From the IMG/VR virus record IMGVR_UViG_3300024429_000009, positions 1 to 50,944 of that record: 50,944 bases of DNA; one strand, 5' to 3'. Every line of letters starts with the position of its first letter. The stretch's first letter is position 1. This DNA is from a virus. Below, piece after piece: positions 1,206 to 50,944 of this stretch. The position numbers and the translations under genes were made by a program. Under the pieces are notes generated by a model. That model was not told the origin of the DNA. It searched no databases and worked only from the letters and a program-made list of their open reading frames with translations.

Positions 1206-1234
1206 TTGACAAACTACGCAATTTGGTATATAAT
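1206..1234 (+). promoter_or_regulatory. Consensus sigma-70 promoter
   Basis: TTGACA (1206-1211) and TATAAT (1229-1234) are separated by exactly 17 bases, a perfect match to the consensus. It is just downstream of int and just upstream of the two-gene pair at 1263-2035, so those genes are probably transcribed strongly in the prophage. Confidence 0.85.
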
Positions 1235-1262
1235 CAAAATAGACTAACCGTGGCAGAAGAGA

Positions 1263-24752: not shown

Positions 24753-25709
24753 TTATTCTTCACCAAGGTTAAAAGAAGGCCACTTGTCTCCTTTTTCTTC
24801 TGAACTACCATCTCCATCAATCGATTTTTTGACTCCCTTAATCTTCTCGATGGTCTCCAGTCTCTTGGTTATCTTACCCAGCTCTTCCTTGACATCCTCA
24901 TCCTTGCCTTTCTCTCCCAGTTTCCCTGCCAGTTTCTTCATAGAATCCTTGATCTCTTCGAGCTCCTTCTTGAGTTCTCCGTTTCCTTCTGTGTTCTTCT
25001 TGTCTAGCTCAAGAAGCTTCGTTAGAGCATCAATAGCTTTCTGAATTTGCTGCCTGGTACTCTTGGAGAGTTTGGCGCCGGCTTTTTCCAGGTGAGCTTT
25101 CTCTAGTACCTCCAATATTTCCTCGAGCTTATAAGGCTCCTTAGATTTCTGGGTTGCCCCATAGCCAGCGTGCTTGGCTAGGACTCCCACCGCCTTCTTA
25201 AGCTCGTCTGGGAAGTCTCCCTTGTATTTATTGAGGATATTCAAAGCTCCCTTCAAAGCACCAATGACTTTCTCGTCAAGTTTCTTTTGGGCCTTCTCGA
25301 AATCTTCCTCAGAGAAATCCTCCCCTAGTAACTCTTGTAATTGCTCTTTTAGGTCTTTCATTCCCTCTTTCACCTCCAGTGATTTTGATAAATAGAAATG
25401 GTCGGTATGCTTGAAACCGTCCTCGGTCTCGGTAACTTTTGAATAGGAGCAGGAGATATTTTTCCCTAGTCCGTCTACATCGCCACTTCTTGGCATGTAG
25501 AACGAGAAACTAAAATCTACTAGGTCCTTGACCTCCTCACCGCCCATAAGTATCTTAGTACCCTTGACCGTCCCGTCACTATTTATCGAAATTTGGGTTT
25601 TCTGTTTCTTTGTATCGTCTTTCTTGACAATGTAGAACTTCTTGCGATTTGAAGCAGCATCGACAAGGCTGATCTCTTCAATCTCGATCTCCTTCAATTC
25701 CCTGGCCAT
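24753..25709 (-). CDS. Scaffold-like head protein
   Basis: The 318-residue protein is very rich in Lys, Glu and Leu and mostly helical from residue 115 onward, with coiled-coil-like segments such as LKKELEEIKDSMKKLAGKLGE. Its N-terminal part (EIEEISLVDAASNRKKFYIVKK) resembles the XkdF-type protease/scaffold junction. Position between the XkdF-like protease and the major capsid gene is that of a scaffold. GAGGTGA precedes the ATG. The bases between it and the upstream gene hold a candidate small RNA. Confidence 0.75.
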   Translation of the reverse strand: MARELKEIEIEEISLVDAASNRKKFYIVKKDDTKKQKTQISINSDGTVKGTKILMGGEEVKDLVDFSFSFYMPRSGDVDGLGKNISCSYSKVTETEDGFKHTDHFYLSKSLEVKEGMKDLKEQLQELLGEDFSEEDFEKAQKKLDEKVIGALKGALNILNKYKGDFPDELKKAVGVLAKHAGYGATQKSKEPYKLEEILEVLEKAHLEKAGAKLSKSTRQQIQKAIDALTKLLELDKKNTEGNGELKKELEEIKDSMKKLAGKLGEKGKDEDVKEELGKITKRLETIEKIKGVKKSIDGDGSSEEKGDKWPSFNLGEE

Positions 25710-25747
25710 TCACAATCACCTCTCTTTTCTTGGTTTAGGTATTTCAA

Positions 25748-25866
25748 TAAAAAAAGCGGACACCTAAACCTTTCAGATTCACGATCCGAATAGCTTAGGC
25801 GTCCGCTTCTAGCTTCCCTCAGTTGGCTAAGGGAACTTTAGCACGACCTTAACCCTTTTGGCGTCG
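25748..25866 (-). ncRNA. Candidate small RNA with intrinsic terminator in the head operon
   Basis: The 210-base gap between the protease and scaffold genes has no reading frame but strong structure on the minus strand. TTGCTA (25896-25891) and GATAAA (25873-25868) are 17 bases apart and could be a promoter starting near 25861. Then come a GCGAC/GTCGT hairpin, a TTCCCT/AGGGAA hairpin, and a 14-bp stem (arms 25795-25808 and 25754-25767, one G-U pair) with a large loop. That stem is followed by seven T residues, as in an intrinsic terminator. No known riboswitch class is recognised. It could equally be a leader that attenuates the scaffold-capsid genes. Confidence 0.55.
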
Positions 25867-25919
25867 CTTTATCAAATTGTCAATTATCAATAGCAATCAT
25901 ATATGATAGTTTTAAGATG

Positions 25920-27500
25920 TCAAGTGCTAGCCGATGCACGACCAGCCATGCTGAATCCATTTAGCTTGCCGGATAAGACATCCTTCCAGATCTCCGGCTC
26001 ATCACCCAGGTAAATACTCAACCACCAGGCCCCTTTTTTGACCAGGTGCTCCGGACCAGTCCCTCCCTTATGGGTATTTTCCTCCGCCTGGAAGCACTCG
26101 ACTATGGGAACGCTTTTGGCCTTTCCTTTGTGCATGACCTTAATAGATTTCTTCTCGATCATATAGTTCTTGAGAGCTTTCCAGATCTCCTTTGCGTTTG
26201 CCTTATCCCCCTGGGTGTCCTCCTTATCCGGCTCATAAATGATCCCGCCCACTATATGCTCCTTCTTGTCGACCTTTCCGAATGTAAATTCAAGCGCTTG
26301 GCCCTTCTCTGTTTCCTTTTCTTCGTCTGCTTTCTTAGCCTCTTCTTCTGCCTCCCTGTCTTTGATCCTTCTCTTTACCTCGGCTACCGCAGCCTTCTTG
26401 ATCACATTGAGGTCGCTGCAGGTAAATCTCAGAGCTTTTTCCCTATCTACTTCCTCATCGCTCGGACTTAGCCAGGACGACAGACCATAATCGGAAGGTC
26501 TCTGAGGATAGCTTCCCGGGAGCGGGCTTTTAGGACCACGGCGTGCACCCATTCCTTCGGATTCTCGAATATCACAAGTAGGTTTCATTACCTTCGCTAT
26601 CATAGCCACCCTTCTAACGGTTCCTCTGATTGGCCCTGATGCTCTCGGAGTTAAGGCCCCGCCGTTAATCTGGGAAAAGTGCACCATCCAGGCTTTCTTG
26701 TATCCTGCTGCCCCGCCCTCGAATCTAAAACTGCAGTGGGTACCGAAAGGATTCCTCGGACTCCCTGCAAATTTTTCGACAACTTCCTCAAGCTGCTCCT
26801 CTTTTTCTACCTTCTCAGTAGCGGGCTCGAATAGACCTTTATTCAATTTACAATGTGCTTTTGCTTGCTCAAGGGTCCATTTGTCTTTCGGATAGCGAAG
26901 TGCCTGCTGCTCCATCGGCCCTTTGCCTTTTTTACAGTAAATAACAAAATACTTTTTGCCCTTTATCGATTCAGGTTTATCAGCAACCCTTTCGCCTCTT
27001 CTACATGTATCATATTTCTTTGGATCTTCTAATCTGCAAGAATGTTCATTAGGGTAAGGTTTTGAGACTATCACGGGAATTTTACTGATCTCTACTTTGC
27101 TCGTCTCCCTCTTTGCCCTGATTACTTTATCAAATAGCGGAATATAAGGGGGAGTCGGGCCAGCCTTATTATAGGTAAATTTGCATTTCTTCTTGGTTTC
27201 GCCTTGCACAGCCTCGCTTATTTGCTCTTCCAGTTCTTCATCCCTGTTCTCTTCATCATCCTTAATGACTACATCGACTACCTTGGCCTCCCGGCAGGAC
27301 TTCACAAAAGGGCCGCTAATAGAAACATAATCCTTAATAATAACATCATCAAGACCCTCTACGTCAATCCCAATCATTGCCTTTTTGAACAAGGCTTTAT
27401 CCAGGAGCACATTCGGGCTGAACTTTAAGCCTCTTTTTTGTATCTCAGCCTTCAGGATCCCATAGCTTTTTACTATCTCATACTTCGTTATCTTATTCAT
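25920..27500 (-). CDS. XkdF-like prohead protease, multidomain
   Basis: The 526-residue protein ends (about 415-526) in an XkdF-type domain: EHIVGGIIYEPDKEDTQGD, EKKSIKVMHKG, then GAWWLSIYLGDE and GKLNGFSMAGRA. Such domains are putative head-maturation serine proteases. A central segment (about 150-230) has YPNEHSCRLEDPKKYDTCRRGER and KWTLEQAKAHCKLNKGLF, a domain often linked to phage head proteases. A further Cys-containing region (about 255-345) is not recognised. GAGGGTG lies six bases before the ATG at 27500; a GTG nine bases upstream is less likely. Confidence 0.78.
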   Translation of the reverse strand: MNKITKYEIVKSYGILKAEIQKRGLKFSPNVLLDKALFKKAMIGIDVEGLDDVIIKDYVSISGPFVKSCREAKVVDVVIKDDEENRDEELEEQISEAVQGETKKKCKFTYNKAGPTPPYIPLFDKVIRAKRETSKVEISKIPVIVSKPYPNEHSCRLEDPKKYDTCRRGERVADKPESIKGKKYFVIYCKKGKGPMEQQALRYPKDKWTLEQAKAHCKLNKGLFEPATEKVEKEEQLEEVVEKFAGSPRNPFGTHCSFRFEGGAAGYKKAWMVHFSQINGGALTPRASGPIRGTVRRVAMIAKVMKPTCDIRESEGMGARRGPKSPLPGSYPQRPSDYGLSSWLSPSDEEVDREKALRFTCSDLNVIKKAAVAEVKRRIKDREAEEEAKKADEEKETEKGQALEFTFGKVDKKEHIVGGIIYEPDKEDTQGDKANAKEIWKALKNYMIEKKSIKVMHKGKAKSVPIVECFQAEENTHKGGTGPEHLVKKGAWWLSIYLGDEPEIWKDVLSGKLNGFSMAGRASAST

Positions 27501-32911: not shown

Positions 32912-33208
32912 TCAACCCTTTTCTATTAGTTTTCTAAGCTCTCTCTCAAACACCTCTGCCTGCTTAATGTCCCCACAGGTCGCAAACTCCACCCACGCCT
33001 TGCCTAGCTCAGGCCAGGTATGTATTGCCACATGGCTCTCACCGATAACCACAATACCAGTCATCCCCTGGGGATAGAATTCATGCTTGATCGTGCCAAA
33101 TATAGTCGCTCCCGACTTGTGTATTGCCTCTAAAAAGCTATTCCATACCCTCTTATTGACGCTGACATCACCCGTCAGTACAAATTGCCTTGTCTGTATT
33201 AAGCTCAT
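32912..33208 (-). CDS. speD: S-adenosylmethionine decarboxylase proenzyme
   Basis: The 98-residue protein aligns with prokaryotic SpeD proenzymes. The self-cleavage Glu57-Ser58 in GESHVAIHTWPE would yield a pyruvoyl group at Ser58. His63 and Cys78 (FATCGD) match the processing and catalytic residues of the Thermotoga enzyme with a constant offset of five. It makes decarboxylated SAM for spermidine synthesis and consumes SAM. It overlaps the ParB-methyltransferase gene by 41 bases. No spermidine synthase is in the window, so the host must use the product, or lowering SAM is itself the purpose. Confidence 0.9.
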   Translation of the reverse strand: MSLIQTRQFVLTGDVSVNKRVWNSFLEAIHKSGATIFGTIKHEFYPQGMTGIVVIGESHVAIHTWPELGKAWVEFATCGDIKQAEVFERELRKLIEKG

Positions 33209-35120: not shown

Positions 35121-35304
35121 CTTTATGTCCTAAAACGCCAGCGAGTAAGACCTTCTGGAGAATGGTTGTAAGGAACATCTTGGTCAACTCAAATGCCTGC
35201 CTTCTGCTGAAGCCCCTGTCCTTATATTCCTTATACTGTTTCCACAAGCTCCTAGACATATCGGCCATCGCCTCTTCCATCTTTCTCCACTCTATTGGCT
35301 TCAA
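35113..35304 (-). CDS. Small hypothetical protein, 63 residues
   Basis: The TTG start has GGAGG six bases upstream. The product is helical (KQYKEYKDRGFSRRQAFEL) with a moderately hydrophobic end. It overlaps the HNH gene by 53 bases and the next gene by 8 bases. Small proteins of the type SRRQAFELTKMFLT are often seen close to terminase genes; no function is known to me. Confidence 0.6.
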   Translation of the reverse strand: MKPIEWRKMEEAMADMSRSLWKQYKEYKDRGFSRRQAFELTKMFLTTILQKVLLAGVLGHKDE

Positions 35305-35644
35305 AGCTTTCCTCCTTTCTCTTTATCTCAAATAGGTCATCTCTATGTAAAAATGGGCCCTTCAAGAAGTGCATTCTGTCATGATCAGGCCTGCAGGTTG
35401 AGATCTCATTCTTCGGTATGCACTTACCCCCCTGGGAGCGATAGAGAATCTCGTGAACCTCATCAGCCGGTCTCCTTCCTCTCCCCTCAGCTAAGCAGAC
35501 CTGACAGTAAGGATGCTCCTCAAAGTATTCTTCTTGCGCCCGCCGATCCTTCTGACGTTTTACTTTCCAGTTATATCTTCGTCTCTGTTTAGCAAATGTA
35601 TTTATATCTTTTAGCCACTTAGATTTTGTCGCTGCTACGCTCAT
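35252..35644 (-). CDS. HNH endonuclease
   Basis: The 130-residue protein has a zinc-finger HNH core: CQVC, then DEVHEILYRSQGGK, and CRPDHDRMH. The basic N-terminus (KRQKDRRAQEEYF) may bind DNA. ATG at 35644 with AGGTG close upstream is chosen; a TTG at 35713 would add 23 residues but lacks a ribosome binding site. HNH proteins near terminase genes often help cut DNA at packaging. It is the first gene after the putative late leader. Confidence 0.85.
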   Translation of the reverse strand: MSVAATKSKWLKDINTFAKQRRRYNWKVKRQKDRRAQEEYFEEHPYCQVCLAEGRGRRPADEVHEILYRSQGGKCIPKNEISTCRPDHDRMHFLKGPFLHRDDLFEIKRKEESFEANRVEKDGRGDGRYV

Positions 35645-35774
35645 CTTGCACCTGCCCGGAAAATAGTTATAATAGAAAGGGGAGCGGCCCAGGGAGAACA
35701 TCCCATAAAACAAGACTGCTTGGCGGCGGACTTGCGGGCGCTCCCTTTATCTATTTTGGCCTTTTAATCTTAAT

Positions 35775-35820
35775 AAAAAAGACCAACCCCAAAAACTCGT
35801 TTCCGTCTTTGATGTTGGTC
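35775..35820 (-). terminator. Intrinsic terminator-like hairpin in the late leader
   Basis: On the minus strand GACCAAC (35820-35814) pairs with GTTGGTC (35787-35781) across a loop of 26 bases and is followed by six T residues and ATT. It lies between the putative late promoter and the HNH gene. A transcript from that promoter would end after about 100 bases unless antitermination occurs. Confidence 0.6.
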
Positions 35821-35872
35821 GTATGTTCGTCTTTTATATGTTAGTCGTTTGTTAGTCGTTTGTTAGTCGGTA
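35814..35872 (+). repeat. Five 11-bp iterons (GTTNGTCGTTT) in the late leader
   Basis: Units start at 35814 (GTTGGTCGTAT), 35825 (GTTCGTCTTTT), 35840, 35851 (both GTTAGTCGTTT) and 35862 (GTTAGTCGGTA). All spacings are 11 bases except one 4-base insertion. An 11-base period is about one helical turn, so a protein could bind one face. They directly follow the -10 box in the direction of transcription. The unit GTTCGTC recurs as GACGAAC at the repressor start. Confidence 0.8.
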
Positions 35873-35875
35873 ATA

Positions 35876-35903
35876 ATCTTATCACATCAATTTCTCTTGT
35901 CAA
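35876..35903 (-). promoter_or_regulatory. Putative late promoter
   Basis: On the minus strand TTGACA (35903-35898) is followed after 16 bases by TAAGAT (35881-35876). The -35 is perfect and the -10 has four of six consensus bases, the same hexamer as the repressor promoter. It lies just after the SEC-C gene and upstream of the packaging and morphogenesis genes. Confidence 0.6.
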
Positions 35904-35908
35904 ATCAC

Positions 35909-36052
35909 TCAGTGCAATGCTATTCTCAGGCTTTTCTTGATCTCCCTCTCCCTTCTCTTTACGTCCTTCGGAAAACAACAGTTCTTATATTTCTTTCCGC
36001 TCTGACAAGAACACCACTTATTAAGAAATTTCCTTCTTTCAGTCCTGTTCAT
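35909..36052 (-). CDS. SEC-C motif protein, 47 residues
   Basis: ATG at 36052 opens a 47-residue frame whose centre reads CSCQSGKKYKNCC, the SEC-C zinc motif found at the end of SecA and in many small proteins. The flanks are basic. It is three bases from the stop of the nuclease gene upstream. It may be a small DNA- or protein-binding accessory factor. Confidence 0.7.
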   Translation of the reverse strand: MNRTERRKFLNKWCSCQSGKKYKNCCFPKDVKRREREIKKSLRIALH

Positions 36053-41133: not shown

Positions 41134-41854
41134 CTAATTCCTCCTTACGTTGTATTTCTAACTTATCAAACTGCTTTCTGAGTTTGCTACCACTCAGGAT
41201 ATTAGTTTTCCAGAATGAATGATTTAGGGCCCAGCTAATTATTACGCTTACTTTCTTTAGATCTCTTCTGTCTTTCTCCTCCATAAGTCTGATCTCGTTA
41301 GCCCACCTATCGAGATGTCTTCCCGCGAATACATAGTCCGGCTTGTTCTCTTTAATGAGCTTCTCTAGTAGCTTGGCCAGGGTCAAATGTTTATCTTTGT
41401 ATGCCACTTTCTTAATTAACCGGTGAGGTCTTTCTTTTGTATAGTTTTCTTTCTTTCTTTTGTGGTCACCATTTTTGGTGATAGTTGCGTCACCATTTTT
41501 GGTGACAGGGGTATCACCATTTTTGGTGATAGTCACCATTTTTGGTGATAGTTTCCATTTCTCCCAGTCTTTCTGTATTCCATACTTACAGATATAACTA
41601 TCACCATTTTTGGTGACAAGTTCTTTTTTAAGTAAGCTCTCTAACAGTCTCGCCACGTGTCTCCTCTCAATTCCTGTGGCTTTTGCGAATTGGGTATGAG
41701 AAATAGTGTCTATTTTCTTATGCCATCCCCAGGTCTTTCTAAAAATTACCCATAAGATTTGCATTTCTTGCCCTGGTATTCTTATTTTTGCTAGATGATC
41801 AGCGATCTCATTCGCTATATCTATATGGCCATTCTCTCGCTGTGGGTTTGCCAT
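41051..41854 (-). CDS. Replication initiator (lambda O-like) containing the origin
   Basis: The 267-residue protein has the phage rep O winged-helix N-terminus (about 1-95: ILWVIFRKTWGWHKKIDTIS, then KATGIERRHVARLLESLLKKEL). The middle repeats TKNGD five times because the DNA there is an array of palindromic iterons. The C-terminus is helical and charged, likely the loader-binding part. As in lambda, the initiator would bind sites within its own gene and recruit the downstream DnaC-like loader. Confidence 0.9.
   Translation of the reverse strand: MANPQRENGHIDIANEIADHLAKIRIPGQEMQILWVIFRKTWGWHKKIDTISHTQFAKATGIERRHVARLLESLLKKELVTKNGDSYICKYGIQKDWEKWKLSPKMVTITKNGDTPVTKNGDATITKNGDHKRKKENYTKERPHRLIKKVAYKDKHLTLAKLLEKLIKENKPDYVFAGRHLDRWANEIRLMEEKDRRDLKKVSVIISWALNHSFWKTNILSGSKLRKQFDKLEIQRKEELGGSKQNRQHYQTDKSRKEDKYRDLYET
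41466..41616 (+). repeat. Replication origin iterons inside the O-like gene
   Basis: Five exact copies of the 16-base palindrome TCACCATTTTTGGTGA begin at 41466, 41490, 41514, 41533 and 41601. The first three are 24 bases apart, the fourth 19 and the fifth 68. Each has 6-base arms and a 4-base T spacer. This matches lambdoid origins embedded in the initiator gene. Confidence 0.9.
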
Positions 41855-45009: not shown

Positions 45010-46377
45010 TTACTCCTCTCCTTTCTTGGAATGCTCCTTAAGTTTCTGGGCCATCACTTCGATGCCCCAGATCATATTCTTGTTATTAAGGTCCTTTGAG
45101 GATCCCATACCTTCCCCGAATTCCTCTCTAATCCAGTCTCTATAGCTTCCCTCATCTGCAAATACCCCGATCTCCAGGCATTTCTTCTTAAGGACGTGCC
45201 ATCTGATGTTGAGCTGATTGCGCCCCTTCTTGCCTTCTGATTCTCCTTCCTCTGACTGTTTATCCTGATCTTCCTGGGCCTCTTCTTCTGAGGAAACTTT
45301 ACCCTTCGATTCATCCTTGACCTCTGTTTCGCCTATTTTATCTATGGCTGCCTTATCCTCTCTCTCTTTTTTCTCCTCCAAAGCCGTTTGCTCTTTCATC
45401 ATTTTTTCTACTTGAGAAGGTAGTATCCCTTTTTCTTTACATTCTTTAAGTAGTTTACTAGCGAATTCTGAACTGATAACTTCCTTATCCTTTTCTGAGG
45501 CTATCTTATCTTCTTTCTTTTTTTTCTCCTCTAAAGCTGCCTTTTCTTTCGCTTCCTTCTCTCCCTCATCAGTGGGTATGCTGCCGTCTTTCTTCGGAAA
45601 CAGTAATACAGGCTTATCGTGTAGATTAGGATTATCTATTTCTGCTGTGGGAGCAGGTAGCGCCGATCTCTGCAGCATAGCCATCATTGACTCAACAGAC
45701 ATCTCTAGATCAACGCTCATTACAGGGATGATAGTCAAAATTCGCTTACCCTTCACAACCGGATGAGCTTCCTGCATCTTAACCTCTAAAACAAGGGGGA
45801 TCCAACTGATTCTATTTATCCCTACCCGTTCGAGCATTCCCCTGATCAGTTTTATACCGCTATTGATGTTGATTATGCTGTTGTAGCTAGATGTATCTAT
45901 CTGGTATATTCCTAGTCCCTTGACTTTCGGCAGGATAATCTGAAGGTTTCCTACTTGCTTACATTCTCTCTCCTGATAGTAGGGGCACTCCTTGCCCTCG
46001 CAGTCTATTTCTTTCATCTGAAAATCGTTAAGATCCACCGGTTGCCCTTTTTCATCTACGAGTTTACCATCCTTCATAATTCCTGTACCTTGCGGTAGCT
46101 CAGTTGCTGTCTTTCCGTCACCCTTACAGATTAGTCCTTTCGACCTTCCGTAGCGTTTATACCACTGTGGGAAGAAATCATCTCTGTTCTCCATCGGAAA
46201 CATTATGTCTAGCTTGCGGGGCTTCTCACCGTATACCTCTGTAACCTCTTCCGGTACGGCAAAGTAATCCAGTGTAGATGGATATTCCCTGCCCTTTTTG
46301 CTCAACTTCTTTTCACCGAGCCTGATCTTCCCTTTTCTCGGCAACCTCAATTTCTCTGATAACCCTATGATACTCAT
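45010..46377 (-). CDS. Gp3-like (recombination directionality factor family) protein
   Basis: The 455-residue protein has the features I associate with phage Gp3/RDF-like proteins: VPEEVTEVYGEKPRKLDIMFP, GLICKGDG, CEGKECPYY.ERECKQVGNLQIILP with four Cys, and GLGIYQIDTSSYNSIININS followed by IRGMLERVG. A long Glu/Lys-rich, coiled-coil-like region (about 270-400) and a small helical end domain (WHVLKKKCLEIGV, RDWIREEFG) follow. Characterised RDFs of this family work with serine integrases, whereas this phage has a tyrosine integrase. A recombination or annealing role beside the nuclease and ATPase is more likely. Confidence 0.68.
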   Translation of the reverse strand: MSIIGLSEKLRLPRKGKIRLGEKKLSKKGREYPSTLDYFAVPEEVTEVYGEKPRKLDIMFPMENRDDFFPQWYKRYGRSKGLICKGDGKTATELPQGTGIMKDGKLVDEKGQPVDLNDFQMKEIDCEGKECPYYQERECKQVGNLQIILPKVKGLGIYQIDTSSYNSIININSGIKLIRGMLERVGINRISWIPLVLEVKMQEAHPVVKGKRILTIIPVMSVDLEMSVESMMAMLQRSALPAPTAEIDNPNLHDKPVLLFPKKDGSIPTDEGEKEAKEKAALEEKKKKEDKIASEKDKEVISSEFASKLLKECKEKGILPSQVEKMMKEQTALEEKKEREDKAAIDKIGETEVKDESKGKVSSEEEAQEDQDKQSEEGESEGKKGRNQLNIRWHVLKKKCLEIGVFADEGSYRDWIREEFGEGMGSSKDLNNKNMIWGIEVMAQKLKEHSKKGEE

Positions 46378-47782: not shown

Positions 47783-47884
47783 TTAGGGGCTTCGATTAAG
47801 AATATGAGTTATACTACCTAGCTCAGTATGCAAGCCCCTACCGTTTATATCTTCTACGGCTCGCGTATAGATTTTCACCCTCAT
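47783..47884 (-). CDS. Possible tiny protein, 33 residues
   Basis: The ATG overlaps the stop of the excisionase-like gene (ATGA). The 33-residue product begins MRVKIYTRAVEDI. The overlap is the main support. The remaining 45 bases to the next gene hold only its ribosome binding site. Confidence 0.4.
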   Translation of the reverse strand: MRVKIYTRAVEDINGRGLHTELGSITHILNRSP

Positions 47885-48099
47885 ACCTCTATCTTCCTCC
47901 TCGTCTTAATCTCATTGTTAGCCAGGAATTTGAGAATCTTGTGGCGGTCGAAACGGATATGCCTTCTGATGTTGAAAAAGGGGATGATCTCCAGGTAGCA
48001 CCACTTCCTGAGGGTGGACTCTGAGACGTTTAGCCATTCGGAGAGCTCTTTGATGGTGAGAAGGCTATCGTTCAAAACTTTACTCCTTTCGTTATTCAT
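47881..48099 (-). CDS. MerR/excisionase-like DNA-binding protein
   Basis: The 72-residue protein has a winged-helix pattern typical of small excisionases: LLTIKELSEWLNVSESTLRKWCYLEIIPFF followed by the wing and an end basic segment, split as HTH and wing. GGAG lies five bases before the ATG. It lies in the early leftward operon. It may bend attP/attL DNA as an Xis for the tyrosine integrase, or regulate early genes. Confidence 0.78.
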   Translation of the reverse strand: MNNERSKVLNDSLLTIKELSEWLNVSESTLRKWCYLEIIPFFNIRRHIRFDRHKILKFLANNEIKTRRKIEV

Positions 48100-48721: not shown

Positions 48722-48736
48722 TTAAATTTTTGTCAA
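48709..48736 (-). promoter_or_regulatory. Early leftward promoter (PR-like)
   Basis: On the minus strand TTGACA (48736-48731) is followed after 16 bases by TATAAT (48714-48709). The Cro-like start codon is 22 bases beyond the -10. This should drive the long early leftward unit. Confidence 0.8.
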
Positions 48737-48876: not shown

Positions 48877-48905
48877 TTGACAACCGACTCTAAATTTAGT
48901 AAGAT
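48877..48905 (+). promoter_or_regulatory. Repressor (PRM-like) promoter
   Basis: TTGACA (48877-48882) and TAAGAT (48900-48905) are 17 bases apart. The expected start of transcription falls at about 48912, on top of the first ATG (48910-48912). The mRNA is thus leaderless or nearly so for that start, or has a leader of about 35 bases if the ATG at 48946 is used. Confidence 0.7.
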
Positions 48906-48909
48906 ATAA

Positions 48910-49617
48910 ATGACGAACATCAAGACGAACGATGAGACGAACAAAATGGAACTGGGAAAAAAGATAAAAGCTCTCAGAGAGAACTTGGGTTTGACGCAAA
49001 CAGACCTTGCTAATAAAACGGGTCTGCATCGTTCGCAACTGTCCAGCCTAGAAAATGAGAATATGCCTCCCTTCCAAGACTTCACCAAATATAAGCTACT
49101 CGGGAAAGTTTTAAAGGCCGATCCCCATGAGCTTTGGAAAATAGGACAACGGGACCGGGAGGAGTGGAAGGCGAAACAGCACTTGGTGAAGGCAGAACTT
49201 CTGAGACCCGATATAATCAAAAAGCCTACCCACCCTATCCCCATCCTCTCCGAAATCCCGGCAGGCAACCCCAAAGATTATAGTGATCAAGACTACCCCC
49301 CTGGCATAGCCGAGGATTACTATGAGTTCAAGGTAGATGATCCCAACGCTTTCTTCCTGAGAGCCAAAGGGGACTGTATGAGCCCTTACATAATAGAGGG
49401 AGACCTTTTGCTTATATCGCCTAATGATAAGGTAGAGACTGGAGATGTGGCTATTGTAATAAATAACAAAGGAGAAAAGGAAGTCACAAGGGTCGTAGTA
49501 CACAAAGACCAGATTATTTTGACTCCTGACAATCCTGCCTATCCGACTGTGGTGTGGGAAGTTAAGGATAAGCCGAAAATAATAGGAAGAGTAAAGGAGA
49601 TAATAAGGAGGAGGTAA
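48910..49617 (+). CDS. S24 (CI/LexA-like) phage repressor
   Basis: The 235-residue protein has an XRE helix-turn-helix (about 17-50) and an S24 peptidase domain (about 110-235). Ala118-Gly119 in EIPAGNP is a likely self-cleavage site and Ser158 in GDCMSPY the nucleophile. The usual catalytic Lys in the GE..VKR strand appears to be Thr193 (KEVTRV), so cleavage may be impaired or use Lys190. The first 12 residues come from GACGAAC repeats; the ATG at 48946 (MELGKKIKALRE) is a more typical HTH start. It maintains lysogeny and heads a three-gene rightward operon. Confidence 0.92.
   Translation: MTNIKTNDETNKMELGKKIKALRENLGLTQTDLANKTGLHRSQLSSLENENMPPFQDFTKYKLLGKVLKADPHELWKIGQRDREEWKAKQHLVKAELLRPDIIKKPTHPIPILSEIPAGNPKDYSDQDYPPGIAEDYYEFKVDDPNAFFLRAKGDCMSPYIIEGDLLLISPNDKVETGDVAIVINNKGEKEVTRVVVHKDQIILTPDNPAYPTVVWEVKDKPKIIGRVKEIIRRR
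48912..48942 (+). repeat. Three GACGAAC repeats, 12-bp period
   Basis: GACGAAC occurs at 48912, 48924 and 48936, exactly 12 bases apart, at the predicted transcription start of the repressor gene. The complement GTTCGTC is one unit of the 11-bp iterons in the late leader (35825). They may be operator half-sites for autoregulation, translated as Thr-Asn pairs if the first ATG is used. Confidence 0.7.
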
Positions 49618-50849: not shown

Positions 50850-50944
50850 GAATCCCTGCACCGCTACCCCTAATTAGAACAATACTTTAGGAGCTAGTTT
50901 CAAAATAGAGATAGTAAAAGTGTAGTAATGGCGACAATTTACAA
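50850..50944. repeat. attP-type junction; right copy of 95-bp direct repeat
   Basis: These 95 bases are identical to 88-182 and end 17 codon bases into int. They follow phage sequence (GTGGTAAA), so this copy is attP as found in circular or tandem phage DNA, not attR. The offset gives a phage unit of 50,762 bp. Confidence 0.88.

Follow-up and report, generated by a model that had tools for sequence, protein, structure and literature searches.

What admits transcription into the late genes of this virus is the question raised by a 129-bp stretch between its early and late genes. Phage growth has late control as one of its basic steps, and the factor responsible has seldom been identified beyond a few model phages. 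The compact cassette described here is a place where a new kind of antiterminator might be sought. The DNA analysed (the window) is the virus record IMGVR_UViG_3300024429_000009, 50,944 bases in length. The finding is drawn from this one genome, and all transcription starts given are predicted. The stretch is a real, non-random regulatory leader, for which a role as a terminator gate to the late genes is plausible.

The source virus is a temperate phage. Its window begins with a host tRNA sequence, the sole Rfam match in our search, and the last ~90 bases of the window repeat bases ~90-181 (regions 50853-50944 and 1-181, the attachment region beside tRNA-Met); as expected, this terminal repeat fits a mix of integrated and excised phage. 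The genes that frame the late leader are as follows.

30-107, tRNA-Met
166-1197, integrase gene
35252-35644, minus strand, HNH endonuclease gene, the first gene past the late leader
41854-41051, O-like initiator gene
48-49.6 kb, immunity region with a CI-like repressor (HTH plus S24), a Cro-like HTH_26 protein and an excisionase-like HTH_17 protein
48687-48481, Cro-like gene (HTH_26)

The early genes run leftward and include the O-like initiator, a DnaC-like loader and methylases. Late genes also run leftward, starting below 35.65 kb, and comprise HNH, ParB-methylase, AdoMet decarboxylase, TerS, TerL, portal, head and tail genes. The AdoMet decarboxylase-like gene (32912-33208, minus strand) sits between the methylase and terminase genes. 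Repeated TCACCAAAAATGGTGA elements are contained in the O-like gene at 41463-41615 and are likely the replication origin. A protein of the Gp3-like recombination directionality factor family is encoded at 45010-46377 (minus strand); the phage integrase is of the tyrosine type.

Between the early and late genes, a promoter (P1), five repeat units and a terminator follow one another in order within 129 nt, directly after a small gene.

35909-36052, minus strand, gene for a 47-aa basic SEC-C miniprotein, a candidate factor in the position of Q
35898-35903, minus strand, P1 -35 element TTGACA
35876-35881, minus strand, P1 extended -10 element TAAGAT (TGaTAAGAT), 16-nt spacer
35862-35868, minus strand, unit 1, GACTAAC, beginning at the predicted +1/+2
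35851-35857, minus strand, unit 2, GACTAAC
35840-35846, minus strand, unit 3, GACTAAC
35825-35831, minus strand, unit 4, GACGAAC, a 15-nt step from unit 3
35814-35820, minus strand, unit 5, GACCAAC, also the 5' arm of the terminator stem
35775-35820, minus strand, intrinsic terminator with a two-part stem and a U6 tract, -19.6 kcal/mol

P1 shows 10/12 matches plus the extended TG, starts 5 bp past the SEC-C gene (minus strand) and has its predicted +1 at ~35869. An exact TTGACA with a fair -10 occurs at only six sites in the 51-kb window, P1 among them. The simple promoter scan gave 38 promoters against 39 expected, a number that is not significant, so that what supports P1 is its quality, its position between genes and the register it keeps with the array; the numbers of terminator-like matches in the region were also near chance expectation. 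The same scan found no further good leftward promoter between the leader and the HNH gene. A second copy of TAAGAT lies past the terminator (35767-35772, minus strand) and is a possible weak, activator-dependent -10, and TAAGATTA is present twice, the copies 109 bp apart.

The conserved core of the repeat is GACNAAC (GTTNGTC on the plus strand). Its five copies fall within ~57 nt, begin ~40 bp past the stop of the SEC-C gene, advance in steps of 11, 11, 15 and 11, and carry T, T, T, G and C as their central base. In 20 simulated genomes a motif of the form xxxNxxx never exceeded three copies per 60 nt; the array is not due to chance, and a five-unit array is unique in the genome. When the initial transcribed region was compared by eye with a -10-like pause element, TAACAA in units 1 and 2 matched at 3/6 positions and TAACAT at ~+27 matched at 4/6. 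The sequence-only reading of this locus had proposed a TTGACA-16-TAAGAT promoter, five 11-bp units and a T-tract hairpin ahead of the packaging and virion genes. The promoter is indeed present on the minus strand (35903-35876), the hairpin was recovered at -19.6 kcal/mol with its U6 tract, and HNH, ParB-methylase, TerS, TerL and portal genes follow. Five units were also found, but their description as 11-bp repeats has to be revised, as the full 11-mer GTTNGTCGTTT is matched by only two of the five, one step is 15 and the shared core is GACNAAC.

The array and the terminator share sequence. At the base of the stem, unit 5 (GACCAAC) pairs with GUUGGUC (35787-35781), followed by an upper stem and the U6 tract, and the leader would end at ~+95. 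The fold of the leader has z = -3.5, none of the shuffles being as good, and the region between the terminator and the HNH gene is not unusual in structure (z = -0.9). Unit 5 pairs with the 3' arm at a probability of 0.995, and units 1-4 are unpaired at a probability of at least 0.84. With unit 5 blocked, the stability of the fold fell from -19.9 kcal/mol to -14.7; it reached -8.4 with the entire 5' arm blocked, and with all units blocked -4.4 was left. One feature of an RNA attenuator, a binding unit that overlaps a terminator arm, is thus present, and since unit 5 is the 5' arm, a factor bound there would block termination. A terminator-like site is also found after the cro-like gene, with a hairpin no better than shuffles.

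The unit is also found at the start of two further predicted transcripts, those of the CI-like repressor and of a promoter beside the integrase.

48877-48905, plus strand, promoter of the CI-like repressor gene, TTGACA-17-TAAGAT
48912-48942, plus strand, three GACGAAC units (48912, 48924, 48936) in 12-bp steps from the predicted +1
48946-49617, plus strand, CI-like repressor gene (HTH plus S24 peptidase)
1206-1248, plus strand, promoter beside the integrase gene, TTGACA-17-TATAAT, with GACTAAC (1242-1248) at the predicted +2

GACNAAC therefore stands at the predicted +1/+2 of three of the six TTGACA promoters, with five units at P1, three at 48877 and one at 1206 (the latter two on the plus strand). 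For the five TTGACA promoters other than P1, the chance of finding it at no fewer than two is ~9e-5, and the single-unit match on the integrase side is weak alone. At all three promoters the units are in transcript orientation, none begins upstream of +1 and none overlaps a -35 or -10. The alignment of the late and CI leaders extends beyond the single motifs, with a score equalled by 1 of 500 shuffles. Because the motif also occurs at the CI and integrase-side promoters, the signal is not late-specific and argues for a broader switch. The exact register with +1, kept at three promoters, fits a factor that recognises nascent 5' ends; spacings of 11-12 bp suit DNA recognition and count against an RNA reading.

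The repressor gene has no clear ribosome-binding site, and its transcript would begin either within the GACGAAC repeats or at 48910, with a leaderless ATG. The repressor units are in frame with this possible start and may thus be coding in part. For the early lytic promoter (48736, minus strand), no GACNAAC was found between 48690 and 48760; it has ATTAGT-N8-ACTAAT over its -10, so that the main repressor probably uses a different operator, GACNAAC being read by a separate factor. Between 48688 and 48905, TACTAATTT and AATTTAGTA elements lie within the early and repressor promoters and are likely operators of CI or Cro. Action of an excisionase at attP through GACNAAC was rejected, as no cluster occurs near the att core.

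A second module of promoter, leader and terminator was found among the head genes. It separates the prohead protease gene (27509-25920) from the next gene, after which the capsid gene follows.

25745-25923, minus strand, second module, with promoter TTGACA-16-TATGAT (25923-25896) and a hairpin plus U7

The gene after the protease gene (24753-25709, minus strand) is probably the scaffold gene. The profile phrog_3017 has matches in both of these genes, in swapped order: at the C-terminus of the protease gene (positions 47-154) and at the N-terminus of the gene after it (1-42). The hairpin of the second module (19 bp, -37.9 kcal/mol, at 25752) is the strongest compact leftward hairpin with a U-tract. 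Its leader carries three short TTGAYAA-like repeats at +1, has a fold with z = -6.2 and gave no match in an Rfam search. Two compact leftward hairpins with U-rich tails stand out, in the late leader and in this module, and as each closes a promoter leader, terminator-gated late transcription is favoured. Because the -37.9 hairpin lies inside the late operon, transcripts of the late genes must either read through terminators or be subject to a gate at two points. The second module contains no GACNAAC, and there is no sequence similarity between the two late leaders, so one motif and a single factor do not explain both.

Two small phage proteins are candidates for the factor that recognises GACNAAC, the SEC-C miniprotein and an excisionase-like protein from the immunity region.

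47881-48099, minus strand, gene for a 72-aa HTH_17 excisionase-like protein

Sixteen of the 47 residues of the SEC-C miniprotein are Lys or Arg, and its predicted structure is fairly confident (pLDDT 83) with a basic C-terminal helix. PHROGs, Pfam and NCBIfam profile searches gave no match to a Q family among the proteins scanned, which included a subset of the small ORFs; for these proteins the earlier statement that no Q-like protein is recognised stands. These protein searches gave no match to an ArpU/RinA/Ltr-like protein either, and no TRAP/RAT-type RNA attenuator protein was seen, nor an Rfam match of that kind. A 66-aa protein (35120-34920) considered as a ribbon-helix-helix protein, by analogy with the plasmid R1 iterons, was unsupported, its model being helical and of low confidence.

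Relatives were sought in viral contigs and phage records. The best TerL relative (L001, 79%) is too short to reach the leader, the relative of the endonuclease beside the leader (L037) is not syntenic, a relative of the 257-aa gene upstream of TerS (L288) lacks the leader, and searches with the HNH protein and the repressor gave no relatives. The leader sequence gave nothing useful against phage records, and a promoter followed by two units was not found in viral contigs. Among the matches listed for the triple-unit pattern, initiator-gene iterons and coding repeats predominate; those listed for a promoter plus one unit are of mixed kinds, and many have ATGACAAAC at the start, like leaderless genes. 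Iterons of 11 bp with the sequence CGACNAAC occur within replication genes at L050:4101-4736, L102:436-1545 and at least ~45 further loci, and the two checked are DnaD/O-like. Their steps of 11 cross the codon frame, which implies selection on DNA, and these arrays act as DNA, a point in favour of a DNA reading of the late array. No relative that carries the leader, and could show conservation or covariation, was found in the contigs and records searched, so the mechanism stays inferred.

The reading to which we give most weight, tentatively and at somewhat under even chances, is a terminator-gated late-operon leader opened by a phage factor whose target is GACNAAC, with nascent RNA a likelier substrate than DNA. 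P1 would probably be active by default, giving a transcript that begins with GACNAAC units. Without the phage factor, polymerase would halt at the hairpin at ~+95, as would early transcription arriving from upstream. The factor, most likely recognising the motif in nascent RNA, would load on the array and either cover unit 5 in the 5' arm or ride with the polymerase, so that transcription continues into the genes for terminase and virion proteins; if the factor is multimeric and binds RNA, its presence on units 1-5 would keep the hairpin from forming. It would also act on the repressor transcript, with its three units at the start, and dampen repressor synthesis, so that a shared factor would tie lytic commitment to late expression. 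The sequence-only reading had expected late control by an antiterminator or activator; terminator-gated late control remains the best reading, while the repeat proved not to be late-specific and the geometry differs from that of known late activators. It is distinctly doubtful that a new class of factor, perhaps the SEC-C miniprotein, reads GACNAAC at nascent 5' ends, takes polymerase past the late terminator and lowers repressor synthesis, but if true, one RNA signal at several promoters would couple lytic commitment to late expression. A single short motif found at the starts of the late, repressor and integrase-side transcripts, and overlapping a terminator arm, yields a testable prediction of a shared regulator.

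Four other explanations were weighed against this one. It is possible, though on balance unlikely, that the units are DNA operators at which a repressor (CI, the Cro-like protein or HTH_17) sits just downstream of +1 and blocks initiation or elongation at three promoters, the terminator merely ending early transcription. Steps of 11-12 bp match one DNA turn, three HTH regulators are encoded in the immunity region, and sites at the +1 of the repressor promoter would suit autoregulation or Cox-like repression; the stoperators of mycobacteriophages are likewise asymmetric, oriented repressor sites that stop transcription (PMC9283540). Yet the early promoter at 48736, where a repressor must act, is without GACNAAC, no unit covers a -35 or -10, and the 15-bp step breaks the phase. 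We regard as improbable a reading that assigns P1 and the terminator to the early operon and takes the units as Alt/Ltr-type upstream activator sites for a weak late promoter, P2, with its -10 at the second TAAGAT (35772-35767). Relative to P2 the array would span about -109 to -53, near the repeat region of Phi13 Ltr (-107 to -42), and the duplication of TAAGATTA at 109 bp also speaks for this reading; P2, however, has no -35 (TTTTTG) and sits in the terminator tail, at the repressor and 1206 promoters the units come after the start with no second promoter following, and none of the proteins scanned matched the ArpU/RinA/Ltr type.

Promoter and terminator enclose ~95 nt in which units 1-4 are largely unpaired, as would suit a stable 95-nt small RNA made from P1, whose single-stranded repeats act in trans as a protein sponge or antisense while the late genes are driven otherwise. 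The exact position at the early-late boundary and the want of another good leftward promoter before HNH speak against it, as does the search for antisense targets, which gave no clear one, the other reverse-complement matches in the window being single; we hold it to be quite improbable. Very improbable, finally, is a role of the array in replication or packaging, as iterons, cos or pac; the HNH gene adjoining it and the CGACNAAC arrays common in DnaD/O-like initiator genes of other phages can be cited in favour. The phage's own O-like gene has different iterons, TCACCAAAAATGGTGA, and the array is not in or near that gene; GC skew does not change near 35.8 kb, TerS is 3.7 kb distant from the array, and the units recur at two other promoters.

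The preferred reading, a terminator-gated late leader, resembles several known systems, and none of the Q-type, Alt/Ltr-type, GafZ and stoperator families matches it in full. The stoperators of cluster A mycobacteriophages are dispersed asymmetric 13-mers bound by the repressor as a monomer (PMC9283540). Like them, the GACNAAC units are asymmetric, hold a single orientation relative to transcription and occur at several promoters, but they form tandem arrays at +1 and are absent from the early lytic promoter. TRAP/RAT-type RNA attenuators use repeated or stem-overlapping RNA sites beside a terminator; the motif here is different. Alt of TP901-1 and Ltr of Phi13 act at four direct repeats that precede the start (at -76 to -32, and within a deletion region of -107 to -42) (PMC13123087). 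Tandem direct repeats at the early-late junction are shared with these systems, whereas the array here runs downstream from the +1 of P1 and is followed by a terminator, the upstream layout fitting only the weak P2. In the Alt/Ltr/ArpU arrangement the activator gene lies directly upstream with the repeats at its 3' end, whereas the gene upstream here encodes the 47-aa SEC-C protein. GafZ of the Caulobacter GTA cluster, a recently described new antiterminator, works with an element in the promoter and with a terminator (PMC11150451). There too a late-type cluster is gated by a terminator, which GafYZ overcome by unusual antitermination, but the element for GafZ is palindromic and lies between -35 and -10, and the terminator follows the first gene. 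In the lambdoid pR'-tR' arrangement a promoter fires into a terminator before the late genes, a default-off layout relieved by Q antitermination. The leader described here is like pR'-tR' of lambda and 21 in its strong promoter heading the late genes, its short leader, its intrinsic terminator and its candidate factor gene directly upstream. The Q-binding element of phage 21 is TGAGCA, present twice as direct repeats between -35 and -10 (PMC6606751), whereas the P1 spacer, AGAGAAATTGATGTGA, has no 6-bp direct repeat and the repeats lie in the transcribed leader. The SEC-C miniprotein gene stands where Q stands in lambda.
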